Virus record (IMG/VR): IMGVR_UViG_3300001472_000207
Coordinates: 1-22,578 of that record
Reading direction: 5' to 3' (one strand)
DNA: 22,578 nucleotides
DNA from: a virus
The position numbers and the translations under genes were made by a program. This document shows, piece by piece, positions 3,421 through 22,578 of the stretch (its first letter is position 1; each line of letters starts with the position of its first letter). The notes below the pieces were generated by a model. It ran no database searches and was not told where the DNA came from. It saw nothing but the letters and a program-made list of their open reading frames with translations.

Positions 3421-3438
3421 TACCATATATTTATGGTA
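3421..3438 (+). promoter_or_regulatory. Palindrome overlapping a -7-like TATATTTA (possible operator)
   Basis: TACCATA (3421-3427) and TATGGTA (3432-3438) are perfect 7-bp arms around 4 nt. The octamer TATATTTA (3426-3433) inside it is identical to the -7-like element at 2946-2953. The gene at 3472 starts 39 nt after that octamer. A dimeric repressor site over a promoter would fit; a hairpin terminator lacks the T-run on either strand. Confidence 0.45.
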
Positions 3439-3471: not shown

Positions 3472-3771
3472 ATGGATGTAGTAAAATCAGGAGTAGAGTA
3501 TAGAGCGACAGACTTCGCAGATAATACAAAATCTCAAACTATAAAGTTTACGGAAAAAAAAGATGGTAAGTTTCAAGATGGAACTACTAATGAAGAAGTT
3601 ATAAATATTCTCATAGATAGATTTTATAGCTTACAAAAAAGAAATTTTAGTGCAGAGAACCAATGCATCATACTGTTATTAAAGAATGTAAGACAGTTAG
3701 TGGCAAAAAGGTTATCTAGAAAAATAGAAAAAGTAATTAAGTATAATGAAAGTACAAATACCAACTTATAA
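3472..3771 (+). CDS. Acb2/Tad1-like protein, candidate cyclic-nucleotide sponge (anti-CBASS/anti-Thoeris)
   Basis: This is a 99-aa protein. A variable first third (YRATDFADNTKSQTIKFTEKKDG) is followed by DGTTNEEVINILIDRFYSLQ at residues 36-55. Then comes RNFSAENQCIILLLKNVRQLVAKRLSRK (57-84), giving two predicted helices joined by a short loop with 'S-x-EN'. This resembles Bacteroidota phage proteins I remember as Acb2/Tad1-domain members, which read GTTNEEVLxVLIxRLxxLN, then a PCxEN turn, then LxxAxxWLxxRTxxR. Known Acb2/Tad1 proteins are small helical assemblies that bind cyclic di- or trinucleotides or glycocyclic ADP-ribose, blocking CBASS or Thoeris signalling. This copy is divergent: the usual helix-two Trp and a C-terminal RGVEG-like tail are not seen. 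It overlaps the next gene by 26 nt. The family call is an inference; the ligand is unknown. Confidence 0.5.
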   Translation: MDVVKSGVEYRATDFADNTKSQTIKFTEKKDGKFQDGTTNEEVINILIDRFYSLQKRNFSAENQCIILLLKNVRQLVAKRLSRKIEKVIKYNESTNTNL

Positions 3772-4087
3772 AGGAAGATTCCTTAAAGATTATTTAAACA
3801 CAATAAACGGAATATTAAAATTGACACAAACAGAAATTAAAGTTTGTGAGGTATTCCTTAAACTAGATTTAGACAATCCCTGTTCTAAAGATAATAGATT
3901 AAAAGCTTCTGAGCACCTTAATTGGAGTAGGGCGGTATTAAATAATTCTATTAAAAGTTTAAAAGATAAAAAAGTCTTGCTGTATGATCCTAGTAAAAAA
4001 ATACGTTACACGTTTCATCCATTAGTTTATAACTATAAAGCAAATAAAGTTTTAACTTTTGAATTTAAAACCGCAGATGGATTATGA
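3746..4087 (+). CDS. Probable winged-helix DNA-binding protein (113 aa)
   Basis: The protein starts MKVQIPTYKGRFLKDYLNTINGI. It continues LTQTEIKVCEVFLKLDLDNPCSKDNRLKASEHL (28-60), then LNWSRAVLNNSIKSLKDKKVLLYD (59-82), then KIRYTFHPLV. The middle reads as a helix-turn-helix: a helix ending in a turn, 'WSRAVLNNSIKSLKDKKVL' as the recognition helix, and a beta wing (VLLYDPSKKIRYTFHPLV). A transcriptional regulator is plausible because a palindrome overlaps the promoter just upstream of its operon. A replication or terminase-associated DNA-binding protein is an alternative. It overlaps the Acb2-like gene by 26 nt and the next gene by 11 nt. Confidence 0.5.
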   Translation: MKVQIPTYKGRFLKDYLNTINGILKLTQTEIKVCEVFLKLDLDNPCSKDNRLKASEHLNWSRAVLNNSIKSLKDKKVLLYDPSKKIRYTFHPLVYNYKANKVLTFEFKTADGL

Positions 4088-4534: not shown

Positions 4535-4603
4535 GTGAGTAAAAATAATTTAGTAACTTTATTAAAAGAAATAGAAGACAAAGTAAATAATGGCAAAAAA
4601 TAA
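4535..4603 (+). CDS. Possible 22-aa micro-ORF
   Basis: A GTG directly abutting the stop of the 53-aa gene opens MSKNNLVTLLKEIEDKVNNGKK, an amphipathic helix. The frame closes 14 nt inside the 4590 gene. It could be a genuine micropeptide or simply a coupling frame. Support is only positional. Confidence 0.25.
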   Translation: MSKNNLVTLLKEIEDKVNNGKK

Positions 4604-4844
4604 GTTAAAACAAGAAATTTACGAAGAGATACAAGAAGAAATGGGAGGAGATTTACAGGAAATAAAACAAATCTGTGAATCCCAGTTTGAATACTTAGAA
4701 AAAATTATGAAAAGAGGAGCTTTCGAAAGCATAAGACTTTCATATTTTGGTAGATTCCATGTAAATCCCAACAGACTAAAAAAATTAAACGATGAAGCTT
4801 TTCAAAGAAGACAATTTTCAAGTAGTAATAAATCCGGAAGCTAA
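4590..4844 (+). CDS. Small HU/IHF-like DNA-binding protein (84 aa)
   Basis: The protein opens with an acidic helix (KQEIYEEIQEEMGGDLQEIKQ, about residues 7-27). It continues SQFEYLEKIMKRGAFESIRLSYFGRFHVNP (31-60), then RLKKLNDEAFQRRQFSSSN. 'ESIRLSYFGRFHVNP' matches the beta-arm entry of HU/IHF proteins, where a helix ends in a GExVxLxGFGTF-like strand. It is shorter than typical HU (about 90 aa) and lacks the arm's RNP segment. DNA bending near the packaging genes would make sense. The next gene starts within it, with a 53-nt overlap. The HU link is an inference. Confidence 0.45.
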   Translation: MAKNKLKQEIYEEIQEEMGGDLQEIKQICESQFEYLEKIMKRGAFESIRLSYFGRFHVNPNRLKKLNDEAFQRRQFSSSNKSGS

Positions 4845-5364
4845 ACTAATACCGGAGTTTAAAAAAATTATAACTAATGACAAAGACAGAAAAAAACGAA
4901 ACGCATACAAGCACCTATCCTACATTTACTTCATGTGCGACTACAGATCTCCCTATTCTATATACCCAGAGAAAGAAAGAACTAAAAGACTGCTCAAAGA
5001 TTTACACATTGACGATAAATCTTCAATCTCCCAATTCATCCTCAACGGGATGGACAAGTACAATGAGTTGCAGCGTACCCCTGCCATAACTAATCTAAAA
5101 GCAATTAAAGAAGGATTGCTTACATCTGCAAAAGTTATTGATGCACTTAATGAACAAATATCTATATCTTTAGAACTTGTTGATGGAGATGAAGACAGAG
5201 ATGTTGGATCTATAATGAAAGATGTAACTAAATTATTACAAGTATCATCAGAAATACCTAAAGCTATAGATACAATAAACTCATTAGAAGAGAAAGTTAA
5301 GAAAGAACAAGCAAATGAAGCACAGATCCGTGGTGGTGGAACTAAAGGAATGTTTGAAGACTAA
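4792..5364 (+). CDS. Candidate small terminase subunit or packaging-associated protein (190 aa)
   Basis: The ATG at 4792 (MKLFKEDNFQVVINPEAKL) lies inside the HU-like gene. The protein continues with DRKKRNAYKHLSYIYFMCDYRSPYS and YPEKERTKRLL, then a long helical segment (PAITNLKAIKEGLLTSAKV to LVDGDEDRDVGSIMKDV), and ends ANEAQIRGGGTKGMFED. Helical proteins just before the large terminase are often small terminase subunits, which recognise the packaging site. No helix-turn-helix is obvious, so the assignment is positional. Codon choice at about 4880-5095 is visibly richer in C-ending codons than the rest of the gene. The stop overlaps the next ATG (TAATG). Confidence 0.4.
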   Translation: MKLFKEDNFQVVINPEAKLIPEFKKIITNDKDRKKRNAYKHLSYIYFMCDYRSPYSIYPEKERTKRLLKDLHIDDKSSISQFILNGMDKYNELQRTPAITNLKAIKEGLLTSAKVIDALNEQISISLELVDGDEDRDVGSIMKDVTKLLQVSSEIPKAIDTINSLEEKVKKEQANEAQIRGGGTKGMFED

Positions 5365-5999: not shown

Positions 6000-7958
6000 A
6001 TGCTGGTAAACACAAGAGCCTTTAGCGAATCAGCTACAAAATTTATAAAAGAGGGAGTATACTGTGGGGACGCTGTAGGTAGTGCTCCTTACTATGAGTA
6101 TTGGGCAGAACAATTAAGACGATGTACAGAAGGATACATTGTAGGAGACACCAGAATCACAGGACATCATTACTTTTATTTAAACTTTTGTAGAATTAAA
6201 CTAACCGAAGCCACAGAAGAACGTAAGGCTGGTTTAAAAACAGTTTCTTTTCCTAATTTCTGGGATGGTGATTACCAATACTTCCACGCATTAGAAAAAT
6301 CTGCAGAACAAGGTAAACATTTAATTGTAGCAAAAGCTAGGCGTAAAGGATTTAGTTACAAAAATGCTGCCATAGCTGCTAATTTATTTAATACTAGACG
6401 TAATTCTTATACATTGCTATGTGCTCATGATAAAAAGTACCTATATCCGAAAGGAATTATGACAATGGTAACTGATTACATGAATTTTCTTAATGAACAC
6501 ACAGGATGGCAGAAAAGAAGACAAGTTGTTGATAAAATCAACCATAAAAGAGCTAGTTATTTACAATATATTAACAAACAAGCAATTGAAAAAGGATATA
6601 AATCAGAAGTAGAGGCTATTACATTTAAAGATAACCCGGATGCTGCTAGAGGTAAAGATGCATCCTTAGTAATATTTGAAGAATGCGGAGCATTTGATAA
6701 TTTAAAAGCATCCTATCTAGCAACACGTCCTTGTGTTGAAGATGGTGGTATTGTTACAGGTCAAATAATTTTATTTGGTACAGGGGGTGATATGCAAGGT
6801 GGAACAATTGATTTTGAGTCTATGTTTTATAACCCAGAAGCTTATGATCTGTATCCCTTTGACAATATATGGGATGAAGGGTCTACAGGATCTACATGTG
6901 GGTTTTTCTTTCCATCATTCCAAAATAAAATAGGTTATATGGATAAAGATGGTAATTCTTTAGCAGATCAAGCAAAAAAAGAAGAAGATGCTAAAAGAGA
7001 CCAACTAAAAAAAGAAGCAAAAGACGCAAGTACCTTAGATAAATATATAACAGAGTATCCTTGGATGCCTAGAGAAGCTTTTTTACAGCAAAGAGGTAAT
7101 ATGTTTCCCGGAGCTGCTTTAGTATCATGGCGTAATGAGTTAATGAGAACAGGATTAGATAAAAAAATGGCAGTAAACGGAATATTAATAGAAACCTCCA
7201 CAGGTATACAATTTAAACCTAGTGATAAAGCAAGACCTGTTTTAAAATTTCCTCATAACAAAGCAGATGATGTAAGAGGGTGTATAATTATGTATCAAGC
7301 TCCCTCATTTAAACAAGAAAAAATACCAGATGATTTATATTTTATAGTACATGATCCTTATTCAAGTGATGGTTATGGTGCCTCGTTAGGAGCTGCTTAT
7401 GTTATAAAAAGAATAAATAATTTCTCCAAACCTGATGATATGATTGTTGCATCTTATGTTGGTAGACCTGAAACTCAAGATGAATACAATTATAATTTAT
7501 TTTTATTAGCAAAATACTATAATGCACAAATAGGGTTTGAAAATGACAGAGGTGAAGTAATACCTTATGCTAAAAGACACAGACTTTTAAATTATTTGTT
7601 ACCAGAAGCAGAATTGTTTGATAAAACAGATGGTGTACGTATACGTAAGCTAAATAGAACTTATGGTATGTCTATGGGGTCTAGTCATAGAAAAAATCAA
7701 GCAGAAATATATCTACGTGACTGGTTAAGAACACCAAGAGGAACACAAGAAGATGGTGATAGAAAATTAAATTTACATTACATTTATGACATTGCTTTGA
7801 TAGATGAGTTAATAAAATACAACACAAAAGGAAACTTTGACCGTGTTTCTGCTCTTCTTGTAGGAATGTTTCATATGAAAGATCTCTATAATAAGGAGAT
7901 AGAATATAATTATGAAGAATCTAATAATTCGTTTTTTAATAGAAGATTTTTTCAGTAA
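6000..7958 (+). CDS. terL: Large terminase subunit (TerL), ATPase and nuclease
   Basis: At 652 aa this is within the range for phage large terminases. The ATPase half has a Walker A-like segment at residues 111-123 (AKARRKGFSYKNA). It also has RGKDASLVIFEECG at 217-230, with a Walker B and paired acidic residues E227-E228, and a coupling motif ILFGTGG at 257-263. The RNase H-fold nuclease half has acidic residues where expected: D452 in IVHDPY, E514/D516 in GFENDRGE, and D614 in NFDRVSALLVGM. It drives ATP-dependent DNA packaging through the portal and cuts the concatemer. The portal gene follows after 9 nt. Pac versus cos use cannot be told from the sequence. Confidence 0.93.
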   Translation: MLVNTRAFSESATKFIKEGVYCGDAVGSAPYYEYWAEQLRRCTEGYIVGDTRITGHHYFYLNFCRIKLTEATEERKAGLKTVSFPNFWDGDYQYFHALEKSAEQGKHLIVAKARRKGFSYKNAAIAANLFNTRRNSYTLLCAHDKKYLYPKGIMTMVTDYMNFLNEHTGWQKRRQVVDKINHKRASYLQYINKQAIEKGYKSEVEAITFKDNPDAARGKDASLVIFEECGAFDNLKASYLATRPCVEDGGIVTGQIILFGTGGDMQGGTIDFESMFYNPEAYDLYPFDNIWDEGSTGSTCGFFFPSFQNKIGYMDKDGNSLADQAKKEEDAKRDQLKKEAKDASTLDKYITEYPWMPREAFLQQRGNMFPGAALVSWRNELMRTGLDKKMAVNGILIETSTGIQFKPSDKARPVLKFPHNKADDVRGCIIMYQAPSFKQEKIPDDLYFIVHDPYSSDGYGASLGAAYVIKRINNFSKPDDMIVASYVGRPETQDEYNYNLFLLAKYYNAQIGFENDRGEVIPYAKRHRLLNYLLPEAELFDKTDGVRIRKLNRTYGMSMGSSHRKNQAEIYLRDWLRTPRGTQEDGDRKLNLHYIYDIALIDELIKYNTKGNFDRVSALLVGMFHMKDLYNKEIEYNYEESNNSFFNRRFFQ

Positions 7959-7967
7959 TTTGTAGCT

Positions 7968-10235
7968 ATGAGTAGAATTCCGAAGCAAAAAATTCCTCGA
8001 AGTCGGAAAACTAAAGATTGGGGGAAGAAAACTATAAATGCCTTTATTGACAGAACTCAGTTTTCTAGTCAACACAAATCGCATATGCATAAATACTATG
8101 ATGCTTACAACGGTAACCTATCCGAAGCAGATTATAATTATGTAATCAATCCTTACAACTCTGAAAAACATAAAACAAAAGGCTTTCCTGCTAAACTCCG
8201 TAGTTACAATATAATTAAACCAGTTATAGATTTATTACTAGGAGAAAAAGCTAAAAGACCTTTTTCACATCAAGTAGTCGTACGTAATTCTGATATGAAA
8301 AGCATGCAAGATGAATTGCTTAAAGATGAGTTACGAACATACCTAGAACAAAAGTTTGTTAATGACCTTAATGAAATGGGTGTAGAAACAGGTATGGATA
8401 CTAAAGAATTACCTCAACTACAACAAATGCAAGAAGACATTGTAGGAAACTACAAAGACATTCGAGCAATAATGGGGCAACAATCTTTAGATTACTTAAT
8501 AGATAAGTTAGAATTACCAGATAATTTACAAACTGCATTTTTTGATTGGTTAGTATCCGGAGAAGTATATACATATAAAGATATTTGCATGGATGATGTA
8601 GAATATGAAGTTGTGTCTCCTTTAGATATAGATTATGAAAAATCACCAGATGTTCAGTTTATAGAAGACGGTGATTGGTGTGTAAGACGTAAGATGATGA
8701 GTATTAATGCTATTCTAGATAATTTTTATGATGTATTAAAAGATTCTGAAATAGATCGTTTAGAAAATCCATCTCAAAAAACAACTACTGGTATAGTGTC
8801 TCCTTTTAGTAATAAATATTCTTCTACTGAGGATACAGAAAGATTTGCAGAAGTTTTACATGTAACATGGAAGTCCTTCACGCGTGTAGGAATACTAACT
8901 TATTATGATGATATGGGTCAAGAACAAAGTATGGTTGTTGACGAAACATATAAAGTAGATGCAGAATCTAACGAAAATGTAGAATATTTTTGGGTTAATC
9001 AGGTTTGGGAAGGGTATAGAATAGATGGTGATATATTTGTCAACATCAGACCCCATCAAGTACAGAGAAACGAAATGTCTAATCTTTCAATTTGTAAGCT
9101 CCCCTACAATGGAAGAATCTACTCAAATAGACACTCGGATCAAATATCCATAGTTTCGATGGGTGTACCCTACCAGATCTTATATAACATATTTCATTAC
9201 AGATTAGAATTATCTATTGCTAAAAATAAAGATAAAATAATGTTAATGGAGATGAACACTATTCCTAAAAGACATGGGTGGGATGAAGAAAAGTTTATGT
9301 ATTATGCTGATGCAATGGGTTATGCATTTATAGATTCTACTGCAGAAGGTAAAAGAGGAGAAAGAGTTTCTTTTAATCAGTTTCAAGTATTAGATATGAG
9401 TTTAGGTCAATACATAGCTGCACAATTCCAATTGTTACAATCTGTAAAACAAGAATGGGAAGAGCTTGTAGGAATATCTAGACAAAGAAAAGGACAAGTG
9501 CAAGCATCTGATGGTATTGGAGCAACAGAAAGAGCTGTGTTTCAATCTTCTGTTATGACCGAAGAGTTATTTAGAAGATTTGATAAATTTACTGAACGAG
9601 AGTTTAATGGTTTACTAGATACATCAAAAGTTGCTTGGAAAGATGGAAAGAAAACTCAATATATTACTAGTGACTATAGAGAAGCTATACTAGATGTAGA
9701 TCCAGGAATGTTCCAAGAAGCAGAGTTTGGTGTGTTTGTTAAAAATAACTCAATTGAACAAGATAAGTTACAAGCTTTAAAACAATTAACATTATCATTC
9801 GCTCAAAATGGAAGTCAACCTGGTACTATAGCAGAAATTCTAGAAGGAAATAACTTTGCACAAATTAAAACAAAATTACAAGAAGTTGATAAGCTTGAGA
9901 AAGAAATACAACAAGCACAACAACAACAAGCTCAACAGATGCAATCACAACAATTACAATCTCAAGCTCAATCTCAAGAGGCAGCTAGACAATTCGAAGC
10001 CTCTGAAAATCAAAAGGATAGAGATAGTAAAATGGAAATAGAACAATTAAAAGTAGCATCTAAAGCTGTCGATCAGGATATGAACGATAATGGAGTGAAT
10101 GATCAAGTAGATTTAGCTAAAGTACAACTCGAAAGAGAGAAATTACAAGTTAAAAAAGAAGAAATAAGAAATAAAAAAGACATTGAAGAGAAAAAAATAG
10201 CTGCACAGAAAAAAATAATAGCTAAAAAACAATAA
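7968..10235 (+). CDS. Portal protein
   Basis: This 755-aa protein comes directly after TerL. The N-terminal part has LRSYNIIKPVIDLLLGEKAKRP, a usual portal entry segment. The wing and stem regions contain GDWCVRRKMMSINAILDNF, SKPYNGR-like strands and QEWEELVGISRQRKG. The portal is a dodecameric ring at one capsid vertex through which DNA enters and exits. The C-terminal ~100 residues are Gln/Ala-rich and then Lys/Glu-rich coiled coil (QQAQQQQAQQMQSQQLQSQ ... EREKLQVKKEEIRNKKDIEE). Within this tail, residues 704-715 (DMNDNGVNDQVD) match an EF-hand or dockerin-like calcium loop. The codons around 9040-9180 use more C-ending triplets than their surroundings. Confidence 0.88.
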   Translation: MSRIPKQKIPRSRKTKDWGKKTINAFIDRTQFSSQHKSHMHKYYDAYNGNLSEADYNYVINPYNSEKHKTKGFPAKLRSYNIIKPVIDLLLGEKAKRPFSHQVVVRNSDMKSMQDELLKDELRTYLEQKFVNDLNEMGVETGMDTKELPQLQQMQEDIVGNYKDIRAIMGQQSLDYLIDKLELPDNLQTAFFDWLVSGEVYTYKDICMDDVEYEVVSPLDIDYEKSPDVQFIEDGDWCVRRKMMSINAILDNFYDVLKDSEIDRLENPSQKTTTGIVSPFSNKYSSTEDTERFAEVLHVTWKSFTRVGILTYYDDMGQEQSMVVDETYKVDAESNENVEYFWVNQVWEGYRIDGDIFVNIRPHQVQRNEMSNLSICKLPYNGRIYSNRHSDQISIVSMGVPYQILYNIFHYRLELSIAKNKDKIMLMEMNTIPKRHGWDEEKFMYYADAMGYAFIDSTAEGKRGERVSFNQFQVLDMSLGQYIAAQFQLLQSVKQEWEELVGISRQRKGQVQASDGIGATERAVFQSSVMTEELFRRFDKFTEREFNGLLDTSKVAWKDGKKTQYITSDYREAILDVDPGMFQEAEFGVFVKNNSIEQDKLQALKQLTLSFAQNGSQPGTIAEILEGNNFAQIKTKLQEVDKLEKEIQQAQQQQAQQMQSQQLQSQAQSQEAARQFEASENQKDRDSKMEIEQLKVASKAVDQDMNDNGVNDQVDLAKVQLEREKLQVKKEEIRNKKDIEEKKIAAQKKIIAKKQ

Positions 10236-11469: not shown

Positions 11470-12906
11470 ATGGCAGCAGATAACGCTAAAAAACTTCGTT
11501 TATACGAAGACATTTTCAACGCTGAGGGTATGACTGACGAAAACTCGTTAGCGAACGCCCTTATGACTCAGCCTGATGTACTTTCACCGGTAATTACTCA
11601 CTTAGCTGGAAAAGAAGACAAGAGGTTTCCTCTTTCTTTTCTAACAGAAGGAGTAGGAGCTGTGAATTACATCAATGACATTGAGTACGACTATCCAGTA
11701 ATGGGTAGATTAAACAAAACCGTAAGAGCTTCAGCTCTAGTTAGCGGTTCCGGAGTAAACTCCACTAGATTTAAAGTTAAGTTCGATGAAAAATGGTTCA
11801 TCAAACAATACATTATTGAAAGTGAAGGAGGAGTCCAAGCTAGAATTATGGAAGATCCATATGAAGCAGACGGCGGTTGGGTATACACTTTACAATTAGT
11901 TACAGCTGACGCTACTGACTCAGTAGCATCTAACGATGTAGCAGACAAAAAATGGGTACAATTATTTGCACCTACTGCTATTTCCGGATCAGTTGGTAAC
12001 GAAAGTAACTGGGTTGCTCCATCTAAAATGAGAAATCAAATCTCTCTAATCAGAAAATCCTACAGATATGAAGGAAATATGCCTGACAGAGTGGTTAATT
12101 TTGAATTTAATGTTGACGGAAAGAAGACTAACCTATGGTATGACTTCGAAGAATATCAACACATGTTAAGATGGAAAGAAGAAACAGAATATGCATTATG
12201 GTATTCTAAATACAATAGATCTACTGATGGAACTATTGCTCTTAAAGATGACAACAACAAACCAATTCCTTTAGGAGCTGGTGTTATCGAGCAAATTCCT
12301 AATGTTGATTCTTACTCTAGTTTAACAGCTACAAAAATCAAGTCTGTAGTAAGAGACGCTCTATATGGAGCTTCTGATGCTCAAGACATGAACATTGTTC
12401 TATTTACTGGATTAGGTGGTATGGAAGAATTCGATAACGCAATGAAAGACGAGCTATCTTCAGGTTCTTATATCAAGAACACAGATCCTAGTGCATTTAT
12501 GTCGGGTGGAAGTAACGCTTTACAATTCGGAGGTTTCTTTACTTCTTACAAGCACATTGATGGTCACGTAATTACGGTAAGACATTTACCTTTATTTGAT
12601 CACGGTGCTAGAGCATTAAACAGTCCAAAACATCCAGTGACAGGACTACCTCTAGAATCATACAGAATGATTTTCTTAGACATGTCATCATATGACGGTC
12701 AGAAAAACGTTCAAATGATTTCTAGAAAAGGAAGAGAACTTGTTAGATGGGCAGTAGCCGGAGCAAGTGTCCCTCCAGGATTCAATGGTGGAAACTCCCT
12801 AAGAGCAAATGACGTAGACGGTGCATCTGTACACTTTATGAAAGAGTGCGGAATTGCAATAAGACGTGCTACGAACTGTTTGCATTTAGAGTGTGTTAAA
12901 TCATAA
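11470..12906 (+). CDS. Major capsid protein
   Basis: The 478-aa protein begins MAADNAKKLRLYEDIFNAEG. Its features suit an HK97-fold capsid of this phage group: an N-terminal helix region, VGAVNYINDIEYDYPVMGRL, a long beta-rich centre, and QMISRKGRELVRWAVAGASVPPGF near the end. Together with the terminase, portal and scaffold order, this makes the call secure. Codons are visibly enriched in C-ending forms (AAC, TTC, GAC) compared with TerL, as expected for a highly expressed gene. It is preceded by the conserved A/T leader and followed by a strong terminator, so it probably has its own abundant transcript. The HK97 fold is inferred from family context. Confidence 0.85.
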   Translation: MAADNAKKLRLYEDIFNAEGMTDENSLANALMTQPDVLSPVITHLAGKEDKRFPLSFLTEGVGAVNYINDIEYDYPVMGRLNKTVRASALVSGSGVNSTRFKVKFDEKWFIKQYIIESEGGVQARIMEDPYEADGGWVYTLQLVTADATDSVASNDVADKKWVQLFAPTAISGSVGNESNWVAPSKMRNQISLIRKSYRYEGNMPDRVVNFEFNVDGKKTNLWYDFEEYQHMLRWKEETEYALWYSKYNRSTDGTIALKDDNNKPIPLGAGVIEQIPNVDSYSSLTATKIKSVVRDALYGASDAQDMNIVLFTGLGGMEEFDNAMKDELSSGSYIKNTDPSAFMSGGSNALQFGGFFTSYKHIDGHVITVRHLPLFDHGARALNSPKHPVTGLPLESYRMIFLDMSSYDGQKNVQMISRKGRELVRWAVAGASVPPGFNGGNSLRANDVDGASVHFMKECGIAIRRATNCLHLECVKS

Positions 12907-15896: not shown

Positions 15897-17117
15897 GTGA
15901 CTATAGAAAGCTTAGAACTATTAATAGAAGACATCCTAAAAAAGTATCCAAAAGAATCTTTTAGCAAAACAGCAGACCGTATATTAGAAAAATGTGATTT
16001 ATTTTCACATAGAACATTAAGAAGACGGGTTGCGAAAGTAACGAAACAGATGAAAGAAAATTTATCTGGTGTAGCTACTACGTATAATTATAAAGGTGAA
16101 CAGCCTATAACCTCATTAGAGGAAGCTATAAAGTTCTTTGATATTGATGTCAACGAGTACGAAGTTACCGGGTATTCTTGTAATGCTTGGGACGTAAGTA
16201 CAAAAACGGGTAAAAAAACTAATTATCAGGTAAAGCTCACGCTAAAACCGAGAGCAGAAGAATTAGACTATCAGGAGGTCAAAAAACAACTTGACTATGC
16301 GATATCTAAAGTTAATATAAAAAAGATTCCTGGTGTAAACACAGGAGTCGTATGTCTGGCAGATTTACATATTGGCGCTGATATTAGAAATTTACAACGT
16401 ACACCTGATTTTAATTTTAAATCTGTTATACAGTATTTAAAAGATATAGCAAATCAGGTAAACCAACGAGGATATGAAAAAGTAGAAGTTATATTTCTAG
16501 GAGATTTCATAGAATCGTTTACAGGACTTAACCACGTAAATTCTTGGAAATCTATGGGTAAAGGACTATATGGGCATCACGTTGTGATTTTAGCATTTGA
16601 GATAATGAGAGAGTTTATAAAAAATATAAATAATCTTAAATCTGTGTACATGGTTTCTGGTAATCATGATAGATCAACCTCAGATGCTAAAGTTGACAAT
16701 GAAGGAGACGTAGCAGGATTACTAGCATATATGCTTCGTAGTTCTTTAGATAAAGTTAATGTAGAATTTTCTCCTTTAGTATTAGGAAGTGCGATAGACG
16801 GAATATATTATGTAATGACACATAATCATCACGCACTATCTAGAAGAGATTTAGGAAAGATAATGTTTGAGTATGGTAAGCAAGGAATGTATAATGTACT
16901 TTTAGGAGGGCATTGGCATTCTAGAAAAAGTAAGAAAGTTTTTCATACGTTACAAGAAACGTATGTAGATCAAGCAGATTATAGAGCTATTGATGTTGCT
17001 CCTTTGTTTACCGGCAACTTTTATAGCGAATCTATGGGATTCTCTAGTTCAGCTGGATATACTCTTATAGAAAGTAATGGTAAAGGTAAACCTAACGTAT
17101 TTGATTATTCACTATAA
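15897..17117 (+). CDS. Calcineurin-like metallophosphoesterase (406 aa)
   Basis: The start is GTG at 15897, 40 nt after the terminator. All five metal-binding blocks of the calcineurin-like family are intact: D156-x-H158 (LADLHIG), G202-D203 (LGDFIES), G255-N-H-D (SGNHDR), H309 in VMTHNHH, and G338-H339-W-H341 (LGGHWHS). The family cleaves phosphoester bonds with two metal ions; the closest relatives in phages are Mre11/SbcD-like nucleases. The first ~60 residues are basic and helical (TLRRRVAKVTKQMKENL). Residues 61-118 form a separate region ending NYQVKLTLKP. No SbcC-like partner is in the window. A TAATG overlap links it to the next gene. Whether it acts on DNA or another phosphoester is not known. 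Confidence 0.85.
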   Translation: MTIESLELLIEDILKKYPKESFSKTADRILEKCDLFSHRTLRRRVAKVTKQMKENLSGVATTYNYKGEQPITSLEEAIKFFDIDVNEYEVTGYSCNAWDVSTKTGKKTNYQVKLTLKPRAEELDYQEVKKQLDYAISKVNIKKIPGVNTGVVCLADLHIGADIRNLQRTPDFNFKSVIQYLKDIANQVNQRGYEKVEVIFLGDFIESFTGLNHVNSWKSMGKGLYGHHVVILAFEIMREFIKNINNLKSVYMVSGNHDRSTSDAKVDNEGDVAGLLAYMLRSSLDKVNVEFSPLVLGSAIDGIYYVMTHNHHALSRRDLGKIMFEYGKQGMYNVLLGGHWHSRKSKKVFHTLQETYVDQADYRAIDVAPLFTGNFYSESMGFSSSAGYTLIESNGKGKPNVFDYSL

Positions 17118-17836: not shown

Positions 17837-19957
17837 ATGTCAATCAAATATTTAAATCATATAAACTTACAAGGGAATAGGATAGAAGGAGCTACTATTG
17901 AACCTTTAGGATCAGCTCCTAGTAATAATCTACAAATAGGTAGAGTTTATTATGATACTTCCGGTTCAACAAAAGCATTAAGAATATATGATGGTAGTAA
18001 CTTTGTGTCTATTACTGGAGATATTACAGGGGTAGCAAATACAACTACAGGTCAGTTGACTATATCAAATATGGATGGTCCTGTACCGAGTTTTGCTATT
18101 TTAACAGGAGCTATATCTGAAAATGGAGCTAAGTTAGCTACACAAGCACAAATTAAAACTTATGTAGATTCTAAAATAGATGATTTTGATACTTTAGCTG
18201 AACTTACAGATACTACTATAACTTCTCCTGCAGATGGAGCAATGCTTCTATATGATACAGGCACATCTAAATGGATTGATAATGTAATGTCTGGAGATGC
18301 TACACTAGCAGATACTGGAGCTTTTACTTTAGCTTCAGTTAACTCTAATATAGGAACTTTTGGATCCGCTACAGCTATACCTGCTATAACTGTTAATGCA
18401 AAAGGATTAATTACAGCAGTAGCTACTAATTCTATAACAACTACTTTAACTATAGACGATGCTTCTTCAACACAAGATGTATCATTAGCTAGTGATGATT
18501 TACAGTTTCTTGGTACAACTAATGAAGTTACAACAGCTGTAACAAAAGTTGGTACAGATGTTAAAGTTACAATTGGTTTACCAGATGATGTATCTATAGC
18601 AAGTCAACTTACTGTAGGAACAGCTTCGGGGACAGATGCACCTGTTATTAAATCTATATCTAATTCTGCATCAGAAAATATTTTATTAGAGGGAAGAGAA
18701 ACGTCATCTGCTTCTGCACCTGATTTAGTTCTTTATAGAAATGCAGGAACTCCTGTAGACAATGATACTTTAGGTGTCCTTGAGTTTAGAGGGAGAAATG
18801 TAATGGGAGCAAGTGCTAATTCATCAGATTTAACTTATACTGGTTTTTACAGTAGGATCTATGATGCAAGTAACCAAGATTCTATAATGGGTCTATCTTT
18901 AAATAAAGGTAATGGAGCTGGAGCATATAAATCAGCAGCTATATTTAAATTATTAGGAAGTAACAACAGTGGTACTGGTGCACTTCTTATTAACCCTGCA
19001 AATGATTTCTCTGTTCCTACACATAACTTAGATGTTAATGGTACTGGTCACTTTAGCGGAGCCGTAACTATTCAAGGAAATCTTACTGTATCAGGAAACC
19101 AAACAACTAAAAATTCTGAAGTTGTATTAATTGAAGATAATATAATTACTCTTAACAGTAATGAAACTGGTACTCCTAGTGAAGATTCAGGTATTGAAGT
19201 AGAAAGAGGAACATCAACTAATGCTATTTTATATTGGGACGAATCAACTGATAGATGGTCACAAAGATTAGCTGGAGCAACAGAGTATAAATTACATACA
19301 GAACAAAATGATGTAGTATTAGGCACTCATACTTCTGGTAGCTATGTACAATCTATTTCTGCAAGTACTAATATAGCTATTACAAACCCAGGCGCGGGCG
19401 AAGGTACTACACATGCGATTAGTGTTACAGGTCTTGATAACTATGATTACTGGAACTTAAAAGTTAATAATACTTCTGTAGATAATATAAGTACTACAGA
19501 ATCTGTTGACTTTGTAGGAGGTGGTGGTATTACTATAGCTTTTGAAAATGGAGAAGATGTTAATATATCGCATAGTGATACATCATCACAAGCATCTGTA
19601 GATAATTCAGGTAATGCAGTTATACAAGATGTTACATTAGATACATATGGTCACGTTACAGCATTAGTTTCCAAAACTATAGAAGTACCTACAGACAGAA
19701 TGTTTGCTGGAACTATAGGAGATGGATCTGCTGTATCATACAATATTGATAATTCTGGTGCTAGTTCACCTCATATAAATCATGGCTTAGGTACCGATTC
19801 TAGTCAATTTATGGTACAGTTAATTGAAGTATCATCAGGTGATACAGTACATGCAGATGTTTCTAGAAAAACCGGAGGTAGGGTGCAAGTTGTTTTTGCT
19901 ACAGGAAATGCTCCTGCTACTAATGGAATTAAAGTTCTTATCAATAAGATAGGATAA
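17837..19957 (+). CDS. Tail fibre protein (706 aa)
   Basis: The N-terminal segment (MSIKYLNHINLQGNRIEGAT) is a probable attachment region shared with the next fibre. A repeat-rich shaft follows: LAELTDTTITSPADGAMLLY, then a long run of Thr/Ser/Ala beta stretches, then FSGAVTIQGNLTVSGNQT and DSGIEVERGTSTNAILYWDE. The C-terminus (DGSAVSYNIDNSGASSPHIN, HGLGTDSSQFMVQLIEV, KTGGRVQVVFATGNAPATNG) ends in IKVLINKIG. The LTDTTI-P-DG-LLYD block and the NLTVSG motif are common in marine phage fibres. The protein probably forms trimeric fibres that bind host surface sugars. No intramolecular chaperone or enzyme domain is seen. Confidence 0.75.
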   Translation: MSIKYLNHINLQGNRIEGATIEPLGSAPSNNLQIGRVYYDTSGSTKALRIYDGSNFVSITGDITGVANTTTGQLTISNMDGPVPSFAILTGAISENGAKLATQAQIKTYVDSKIDDFDTLAELTDTTITSPADGAMLLYDTGTSKWIDNVMSGDATLADTGAFTLASVNSNIGTFGSATAIPAITVNAKGLITAVATNSITTTLTIDDASSTQDVSLASDDLQFLGTTNEVTTAVTKVGTDVKVTIGLPDDVSIASQLTVGTASGTDAPVIKSISNSASENILLEGRETSSASAPDLVLYRNAGTPVDNDTLGVLEFRGRNVMGASANSSDLTYTGFYSRIYDASNQDSIMGLSLNKGNGAGAYKSAAIFKLLGSNNSGTGALLINPANDFSVPTHNLDVNGTGHFSGAVTIQGNLTVSGNQTTKNSEVVLIEDNIITLNSNETGTPSEDSGIEVERGTSTNAILYWDESTDRWSQRLAGATEYKLHTEQNDVVLGTHTSGSYVQSISASTNIAITNPGAGEGTTHAISVTGLDNYDYWNLKVNNTSVDNISTTESVDFVGGGGITIAFENGEDVNISHSDTSSQASVDNSGNAVIQDVTLDTYGHVTALVSKTIEVPTDRMFAGTIGDGSAVSYNIDNSGASSPHINHGLGTDSSQFMVQLIEVSSGDTVHADVSRKTGGRVQVVFATGNAPATNGIKVLINKIG

Positions 19958-19977: not shown

Positions 19978-22578
19978 ATGGCTAGGAAATTCTTAAATGG
20001 AATACATATATCTGGTACAACACAGATAGACTTTATGCCAGATCACGAAAGTGAAGGTATAATAACATTAGGTAGATACGACTCTAACACGAGCAGGTAT
20101 CACAATATAAAGTCGTACGTGTCTTCTACTGAAGCCAGTAACTATTTAAAATTCTCTCTTCACGCAGGTACGGAAAATGCCATAGTCGATGTCCTTACTT
20201 TAAACGGAAATAAAAACGCAACTTTTGCAGGTGACGCAATTTTTGGTGGCACGTCATTTGAAGATAATAACAGCCTTACAAGAAAAATAGAAATTGCAGC
20301 AGCAAGTCCAGTAGGTTTAATATTAAATGATACTAGAGACACGCATCCAATGGCTATCACTAATGATGGTGCTGTAATGAATTTAAGATATAATACTACT
20401 TCTATGTTAGCTTTAGATGGAGCTACAAGCAATGCAACTTTTGCAGGGAATATTTTAATGGGTAATACGGTTGTAAACCCAGCATCAGGCTTTGCAGATC
20501 AAACAGGTATAGGGTTAAAATATTCAACAACAGCTCCAGAAATACAAGTATCTTCAGATAGTGCATCTTTACAGTTAGGTAGAACATCTACTGGTGGTGA
20601 TGGTATAATAATGGCAATGAGATATGGTTCAAACACCATACACACGTTTAGTACAAACGCGATTAGCATTGGATCAAACGCAACTTTTTCAGGTGATGTA
20701 GGTATGGTAACAGGACACTCATCGGGTAAGTTTGCTGTAATGAGCACTTCTGTTCATGGTTCATACGATTTTTATAATAATGGTACAAGTTATTTTAATG
20801 GTGCTGTTATAATAGATAGCAATATAACTCAAACAGGAGCTACTATTGCTAGTTTTACAGATAAAGTTGGGGTTGGAACCGCGGATCCATATGCTTTTGA
20901 TACTACCGCTACTAAGTTCCATGTTAAAAACCCTGGTTCTGCAGGATCTGTAGTTGAAGTTGCTAGGTTTGAAGGTTCATCTGATGCTGATGGAAGTGGT
21001 GCTGTTGTTAGAATAGGTACATCTAATGATAGAGGTATGTATTTTCAAGCAGGTAGAACTGGTACAGTACCTTATGCTGAAATTGGTACTACAGAATATA
21101 ATGGTGCTAAAACATTAGCACTAACATTAGATGACTCAGGAAACACAACTTTTGCAGGTGATGTTACATTAGGTGATAATCAAAAACTACACGGTGGTAG
21201 AGTACATCCAACAAGTGTATATGGCACAACACCGGCTAATGGCTTTTTAATAGCCACAGACGTAGCGTCAAACCAATACGCTATGATACAGGGTGAAATT
21301 GATTTAATACAATTTAACTCAAGTACAAAACAAAGAATAGAATTCTCAGCAACTCTTAATAATAATGGGACGGTATTTAATAGTAAGGGAACAGCTGATA
21401 TAAATATAACTATAAAACTATTTGTATATAACAGTAAGTGGTATGTGCATATTCCACAAGCTAGCACATACATGACTTGTACTGCTTTAATTTCTAAAGC
21501 AAATGCTTATGTAGGTGATAGCGATGCTAGTAATTCAATAGTAACTCTTACGGCAGCCGCTGTTCCAAGCTCTGGAGTTACTGGTTCAACAGATATAGTT
21601 TGTAAATTTGCTCAAAGCGATGCATCTTTTGCGGGTGATATAACACAATCTGATGGTAAAAGAATTTGGTTTAGAAATTCTAGCGCCTCAAGTGCTACAG
21701 GTGCTCAATCTTATATTCACTCTGATGGTTTAAATTTAAAAATCAAAGGTGACGACAATGTGAGAATATTAGGTGATGGTGGAGGAACTATTGCTCATTT
21801 TGATTATACAGGTAAAGTTGGTATTGGTATAGAATCCAGTTTAGCAGGTTTACTTCATGTAAAAGGCTCTGGTGATGCTATTAGAGTAGAATCAACAAAC
21901 ACAGGGGCAGGTGGTGCTCAAATGGATCTATTGCATTTTACAACCTCACCAGCAGATGAAGATACTCACGCTGTGATCAACATGGGTGGTTATTACACAG
22001 GGTCAACAAGTGTTTATGGTACACAAATAAAAAGTATATGGACTGATGTTTCAGAAAGACACAGTAGATTAGAATTTACAACCTGTGATACAACAGTAGG
22101 TACAGCGTTAACGTTAGCGCATGATAAATCCGCAACTTTTGCAGGAAATGTAACTTTAGATCCAGCTGCTAACACAGATGTTAAATTAAAACTACATACA
22201 AACTCAGGAGCGTTAGGTGACGCTTATAGTTGGAACATGGTCTCTAGATCCTCTGGAGCTAATTATAACTTTGAAATACAGCAAGGCACTACAACTGTAA
22301 TGAGTATAGGTAATACCGCCGCTGTCGCAGGACATCCTGTGACTTTTGCAGGTGATATAGAATTAGCAGCAAACTTACACTCTACTGGTCAAAATTTAAA
22401 GTTTCACGCCGCTGGAACCCATGTTATGAATATTGATATAAATGGTAAAGTTTATCCAAATACTCATAACGCGTACGATTTAGGTCATAGCGCAAGTTTA
22501 GCATGGAGACATATTTACTCTTCAGGAACAATAGTAGCTAACAACATATCAGTTGCAGGAACTTTATCTGGAGCTGGT
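19978..22578 (+). CDS. Second tail fibre protein with ATFAG repeats (partial, runs off the window)
   Basis: The frame opens at ATG 19978 and stays open for 867 codons to the window end, so the C-terminus is missing. The N-terminus (MARKFLNGIHISGTTQIDF) parallels that of the 706-aa fibre. The shaft contains seven spaced motifs of the form (N/A)(A/T)(T/S)F(A/S)G(D/N), starting near 20215, 20431, 20677, 21142, 21619, 22129 and 22336, each beginning a beta segment. Near the end, NGKVYPNTHNAYDLGHSASL followed by AWRHIYSSGTI is a known phage-fibre segment usually close to the tip. It is a probable trimeric receptor-binding fibre; the tip specificity lies outside the window. Confidence 0.75.
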   Translation, partial: MARKFLNGIHISGTTQIDFMPDHESEGIITLGRYDSNTSRYHNIKSYVSSTEASNYLKFSLHAGTENAIVDVLTLNGNKNATFAGDAIFGGTSFEDNNSLTRKIEIAAASPVGLILNDTRDTHPMAITNDGAVMNLRYNTTSMLALDGATSNATFAGNILMGNTVVNPASGFADQTGIGLKYSTTAPEIQVSSDSASLQLGRTSTGGDGIIMAMRYGSNTIHTFSTNAISIGSNATFSGDVGMVTGHSSGKFAVMSTSVHGSYDFYNNGTSYFNGAVIIDSNITQTGATIASFTDKVGVGTADPYAFDTTATKFHVKNPGSAGSVVEVARFEGSSDADGSGAVVRIGTSNDRGMYFQAGRTGTVPYAEIGTTEYNGAKTLALTLDDSGNTTFAGDVTLGDNQKLHGGRVHPTSVYGTTPANGFLIATDVASNQYAMIQGEIDLIQFNSSTKQRIEFSATLNNNGTVFNSKGTADINITIKLFVYNSKWYVHIPQASTYMTCTALISKANAYVGDSDASNSIVTLTAAAVPSSGVTGSTDIVCKFAQSDASFAGDITQSDGKRIWFRNSSASSATGAQSYIHSDGLNLKIKGDDNVRILGDGGGTIAHFDYTGKVGIGIESSLAGLLHVKGSGDAIRVESTNTGAGGAQMDLLHFTTSPADEDTHAVINMGGYYTGSTSVYGTQIKSIWTDVSERHSRLEFTTCDTTVGTALTLAHDKSATFAGNVTLDPAANTDVKLKLHTNSGALGDAYSWNMVSRSSGANYNFEIQQGTTTVMSIGNTAAVAGHPVTFAGDIELAANLHSTGQNLKFHAAGTHVMNIDINGKVYPNTHNAYDLGHSASLAWRHIYSSGTIVANNISVAGTLSGAG
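20215..22356 (+). repeat. Seven dispersed ATFAG-type repeats in the second fibre gene
   Basis: Short protein repeats (seven residues, 21 nt) sit at 20215-20235, 20431-20451, 20677-20697, 21142-21162, 21619-21639, 22129-22149 and 22336-22356. Several share GCAACTTTTGCAGG exactly at the DNA level, enough for homologous exchange between units. Confidence 0.65.

Follow-up and report, generated by a model that had tools for sequence, protein, structure and literature searches.

Tad1 is a known family of sponge proteins with which phages take up bacterial alarm molecules. They form hexamers built from three dimers, bind cADPR isomers and cyclic di- and/or trinucleotides, and block Thoeris or CBASS. 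Its members consist of a β-sheet and two helices, whereas Acb2 has a short helix and two helices, and the C-terminal tail of Tad1 contributes to the pocket (PMC12043709). The Tad1 of the jumbo phage phiKZ was described in a review as being injected and as blocking both CBASS and Thoeris (PMC13282480). In separate sources, phiKZ gp184 was validated as an injected protein (PMC10449902), one chain of PDB 8Y6V is named gp184 and has a Tad1-like C-terminus, and phiKZ orf184 is mentioned in PMC12043709; taken in combination, these sources identify gp184 as phiKZ Tad1. Here we describe a Tad1 variant that goes unrecognised by Pfam and is a core gene in a crAss-like clade.

The variant is encoded in a 22.6-kb virus record (22,578 nucleotides, referred to here as the window). 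Many crAss-like phages are matched by the large terminase subunit (TerL) of the window, which shares 39% identity with its counterpart in Flavobacterium phage Fpv20. CrAss-like phages were likewise matched by the major capsid protein, and the portal and capsid PHROGs agree, so that the phage is, judging from these matches, crAss-like. Three Bacteroidota MAGs also contain relatives of the Tad1-like gene, and the host is therefore probably a Bacteroidota bacterium. The features discussed below are listed in Table 1.

Table 1. Positions of the features discussed, in the window unless a locus is named
Feature	Position	Strand	Basis or remark
Inverted repeat TACCATA-TATT-TATGGTA, proposed operator	3421..3438	.	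Not above chance
Tad1-like protein, 99 aa	3472..3771	+	Sequence and profile matches, AlphaFold model, Foldseek
Hairpin core, residues 36-85, most conserved part	3577..3726	+	Alignment of relatives
113-aa protein, no family found	3746..4087	+	26-base overlap with the end of the Tad1-like gene
HU/IHF-like DNA-binding protein	4590..4844	+	PF00216, E=5.6e-4, just under cut-off
190-aa protein in small terminase (TerS) position	4792..5364	+	Assigned by position only
Terminase large subunit, crAss-like	6000..7958	+	
Portal protein	7968..10235	+	
Major capsid protein, crAss-like	11470..12906	+	
P0002, intermediate between the window family and canonical Tad1	L086:8001-8312		

Relationship to Tad1 in sequence and fold

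The Tad1-like reading frame, which runs from an ATG start to a TAA stop, is as the initial annotation had described it, and translation places the stretches quoted there at residues 36-51 (DGTTNEEVINILIDRF), 57-71 (RNFSAENQCIILLLK), and 73-84 (VRQLVAKRLSRK). Full-length homologues with 54-99% identity occur in many viral contigs (>120 candidates), indicating that this is a real, selected gene. Their mean pairwise identity was 77% in the hairpin (residues 37-85) versus 55% in residues 1-36. At one locus (L027:253-535), the frame is broken into two by a frameshift or an assembly error.

Our searches identified the protein as a distant, divergent relative of Tad1 rather than of Acb2, and this conclusion survived testing. 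An assignment to a joint Acb2/Tad1 family had been suggested from the sequence alone; its Tad1 half was borne out by PDB, PHROG, profile-profile, and fold matches, but its Acb2 half was not, Acb2 being absent from all sequence matches of the protein. In a phmmer search of the PDB, CbTad1 chains were the sole matches (E=0.002), and in the PHROGs search phrog_2428 ranked first (E=3.7e-4). The latter was matched by all 41 members of a wider alignment, at best with 5.4e-6. Since a CbTad1 fragment (7.7e-26) and the annotated Tad1 of phage SBSphiJ7 (8e-47) both match phrog_2428, it represents the Tad1 family. A 41-sequence profile of the window family returned CbTad1 (0.0015) and CmTad1 (0.03) from the PDB, the remainder being chance-level chains, and an hhalign comparison of the family with eight phage Tad1 homologues gave a probability of 92% (E=6.3e-7).

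The gap between the window family and canonical Tad1 is bridged by P0002, a 103-aa protein encoded on L086, a Bacteroidia MAG contig. Its N-terminus resembles the window family (MKVIKPGLTYDLQN), and at its C-terminal end it has a canonical Tad1 hairpin complete with an RGVEG tail. P0002 matched the window-family profile at 5.3e-12, CmTad1 at 3.7e-12, and phrog_2428 at 1.4e-22, and scored 25.3 against PF24729, where the cut-off is 27. When it was added to the hhalign comparison with the phage Tad1 homologues, the probability rose to 97% (E=6.8e-11). No other single line of evidence speaks as strongly for homology between the window protein and Tad1 as the link that P0002 forms to both sides. 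CmTad1 (PDB 8KBB-8KBD) and the SBSphiJ7 Tad1, which share phrog_2428 with the window protein, are connected to it through P0002. On its contig, the P0002 gene lies upstream of a DNA cytosine methyltransferase-like gene.

Other proteins of this kind were encountered in passing. A second, different Tad1-family protein (L108:1474-1857, minus strand; phrog_2428 at 1.3e-10) is encoded in a Prolixibacteraceae MAG that also contains locus L085. Tad1/Acb2 hairpin proteins of Lactococcus phage 1706 (L169:2336-2689) and Bacillus phage P59 (L090:478-840), and a related hairpin protein of a Klebsiella phage, are labelled "structural protein" in their annotations.

General profile collections did not recover the family. 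Pfam, NCBIfam, and PADLOC scans of the window protein gave no informative match, and tblastn found no match to it in phage records. A check against the hairpin family, put forward with the initial annotation, came out negative: the window protein and the other members of the close-family alignment gave no match above the curated cut-off of Pfam PF24729 (Acb2_Tad1_hairpin), and loci L030-L033 and L084-L085 were likewise unmatched. Clear Tad1 homologues from Vibrio phages were missed by PF24729 as well. We judged MazF/PemK matches (a broad profile, E 0.23-0.95) and a match to Drosophila ACP53EA in the family scan to be due to chance.

Structure prediction, which had also been proposed as a check, agreed with the Tad1 assignment for the monomer. 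AlphaFold models built from 17- and 33-sequence alignments (pLDDT 80.0 and 85.5, respectively) both have five short strands followed by two long helices, with the N-terminal β-sheet at residues 2-35 and the helices of the hairpin at residues 40-57 and 61-98 in the model of pLDDT 85.5. In a Foldseek search of the PDB with the latter, ranks 1 to 12 were all CbTad1 or CmTad1 at a probability of 1.00, followed by noise, and the query-normalised TM-score to CbTad1 was 0.64-0.67 over ~90 columns. The top ten matches of the first model were all CbTad1. Among viral models, the fold matches included proteins named Acb2/Tad1 hairpin.

These results bear on two other readings of the protein. One is an Acb2-type sponge specific to CBASS signals, for which the hairpin domain common to Acb2 and Tad1 (PF24729) would speak. 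However, Acb2 was found neither in the sequence matches nor among the 50 listed PDB fold matches, and residues 2-35 are predicted to form a β-sheet where Acb2 has its short helix, which puts the modelled protein on the Tad1 side; we consider an Acb2-type sponge very improbable. The other is an unrelated short helical phage protein that has come to resemble Tad1 by convergence, as the modest single-sequence E-values (0.002 for the PDB, 4e-4 for PHROGs) and the silence of Pfam might suggest. We give this even less credence, as it is largely refuted by P0002 and by a full-length fold match topped only by Tad1, together with the profile-profile comparison that includes P0002.

Compared with CbTad1 of a Clostridium botulinum prophage (PDB 7UAV, 7UAW, 8SMD, and 8KBE-8KBH), the window protein has the sheet and two-helix architecture in common over ~90 columns and carries the strand, loop, and hairpin motifs in the same order (IKF, G, DR, Q, FS, EN, R), with ~26-28% identity over aligned columns. 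It is shorter than CbTad1 (99 versus ~125 aa) and has a shorter N-terminus, one residue is deleted before the EN motif, and a longer charged helix replaces the RGVEG tail. In an alignment of 19 sequences, F26, G37, E41, R50, and R80 do not vary, and N63 hardly does. The ligand residues F82 and N92 of CbTad1 would presumably align with L54 and N63 of the window protein. The absence of the helix-2 Trp and the RGVEG tail, already pointed out in the initial annotation, was confirmed by the alignment, and an RGVEG-type tail is missing from all close relatives as well. It is also missing from two Vibrio phage Tad1 homologues, so that this tail is typical of Tad1 rather than defining. Given that the C-terminal tail has been described as part of the Tad1 pocket, its loss suggests that the ligand preference of the window protein may differ from that of typical Tad1. 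The Acb2 proteins of T4 and PaMx41 (gp24) share with the window protein a helical hairpin assigned to one Pfam domain but have no β-sheet domain, and phiKZ gp184, reported to be injected with the genome, shares the Tad1-type hairpin but is 230 aa long and carries this hairpin at the C-terminal end.

Gene order and conservation in the crAss-like clade

The genomic setting that had been proposed, namely, an early-type operon behind an operator-like palindrome, found no support. The gene heads a block that encodes the HU/IHF-like protein, the protein in TerS position, TerL, the portal protein, and the major capsid protein. The palindrome is at chance level in this AT-rich DNA, as the window contains 16 such inverted repeats where 16.5 would be expected, with P=0.26 when the 104-bp intergenic stretch is taken alone; it is kept in the closest relatives only and lost beyond them. 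A TAnnTTTG motif recurs upstream of the genes of many relatives, and by inspection no exact copy is present in the window. We take this motif to resemble Bacteroidetes -7 promoter elements.

Using tblastn with the window genes, we found one arrangement throughout the loci of the relatives, i.e., the Tad1-like, 113-aa, HU/IHF-like, TerS-position, TerL, and portal genes, with the bridge locus L086 as the exception. The 113-aa gene is next downstream in nearly all relatives and is fast-evolving; by eye, its product has a winged-helix look. In Bacillus phages that we examined, Tad1 lies beside recombinase or other non-structural genes, whereas the window gene comes first in its packaging operon. 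Farther downstream in the window, a calcineurin-like phosphoesterase or DNA-repair-exonuclease-like protein is encoded amid structural genes (15897-17117, plus strand). Two consecutive long proteins, one of 706 aa (17837-19957, plus strand) and one of at least 867 aa whose frame is open-ended (19978-22578, plus strand), have repeated NATFAGD/TFSGD-like motifs and are probably tail fibre or adhesin-like.

Presence of the gene was counted in loci fetched with TerL, the count over all loci being set aside because part of these had been fetched with the Tad1-like gene itself. The TerL-anchored set comprises 80 listed loci, which are the closest TerL relatives and include some near-identical contigs. 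A single copy was present in every locus with at least 2.6 kb of upstream sequence (42/42). Among loci with >1.5 kb upstream, the sole apparent miss was L111, whose contig ends where the gene would lie. No copy was detectable in six more distant crAss-like or Flavobacterium phages, Fpv20, Cellulophaga phi14:2, crAss001, crAss002, cr8_1, and ctcc615. Given this sampling and the six distant phages, the Tad1-like gene is a core gene for this crAss-like clade only.

Pairwise identity of the Tad1-like protein follows that of TerL (r=0.90). At 65-72% TerL identity, the averages were 59% for the Tad1-like protein, 60% for the portal protein, 51% for the protein in TerS position, 47% for the HU/IHF-like protein, and 38% for the 113-aa protein. 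The Tad1-like protein thus changes at roughly the slow pace of the portal protein, and within its clade the gene is universal and syntenic, unlike most counter-defence genes.

A possible packaged sponge or core virion component

With the entire fold and the positions of the hairpin preserved, the best-supported reading is that of a compact, divergent Tad1-type sponge of a crAss-like Bacteroidota phage, which would sequester a host nucleotide alarm signal; we regard it as somewhat more probable than not. Against it stand the missing RGVEG tail, a conservation unlike that of most counter-defence genes, and the modest single-sequence E-values together with the lack of a Pfam match. By homology, the subunits would assemble through their two-helix hairpins, such that one subunit turns its β-sheet domain and loops towards the helices of another. 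The oligomer could then sequester the host alarm nucleotide, be it a cyclic ADP-ribose isomer and/or a cyclic oligonucleotide, and the Thoeris or CBASS effectors would stay silent. Because the gene constantly leads the packaging and capsid operon, the protein is probably made together with virion proteins. As an extension of this reading, we hypothesize by analogy that it might be packaged and delivered with the DNA like phiKZ Tad1.

The same position and conservation would, however, also fit a Tad1 fold that has been taken over for a core function, as a small protein of the virion, of packaging, or of morphogenesis that acts alongside the HU/IHF-like protein and terminase, its sponge activity gone. 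Such a role would account just as well for a gene that is always present and evolves slowly. It would be in line with the single copy in all 42 TerL-anchored loci, the invariable place before the 113-aa, HU/IHF-like, TerS-position, TerL, and portal genes, and an identity that tracks TerL at the level of the portal protein and above the HU/IHF-like and TerS-position proteins, as well as with the lost RGVEG tail and the "structural protein" labels of the hairpin relatives in Lactococcus phage 1706, Bacillus phage P59, and the Klebsiella phage. Yet a packaged sponge accounts for the same facts, these labels are unchecked annotations, and the Tad1-common positions F26, G37, E41, R50, N63, and R80 are retained. 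We consider a repurposed protein without sponge activity the main rival, though the less likely of the two.

Whichever of the two applies, we tentatively propose that a Tad1-type protein may now be an obligate core component in this crAss-like lineage, either as a sponge that virions carry and deliver with the DNA or in a new role in packaging or capsid assembly. Since the family is unmatched by the Pfam, NCBIfam, and PADLOC models, surveys built on these would miss it. Genes for counter-defence tend to be accessory and patchily distributed, and a universal, slow-evolving Tad1-type gene syntenic with TerL departs from that pattern, suggesting either that the phages of this clade cannot avoid nucleotide-based immunity as a barrier or that the fold serves a second, essential function. 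The window protein offers a concrete test case for whether sponges are also carried in the virions of phages other than jumbo phages.
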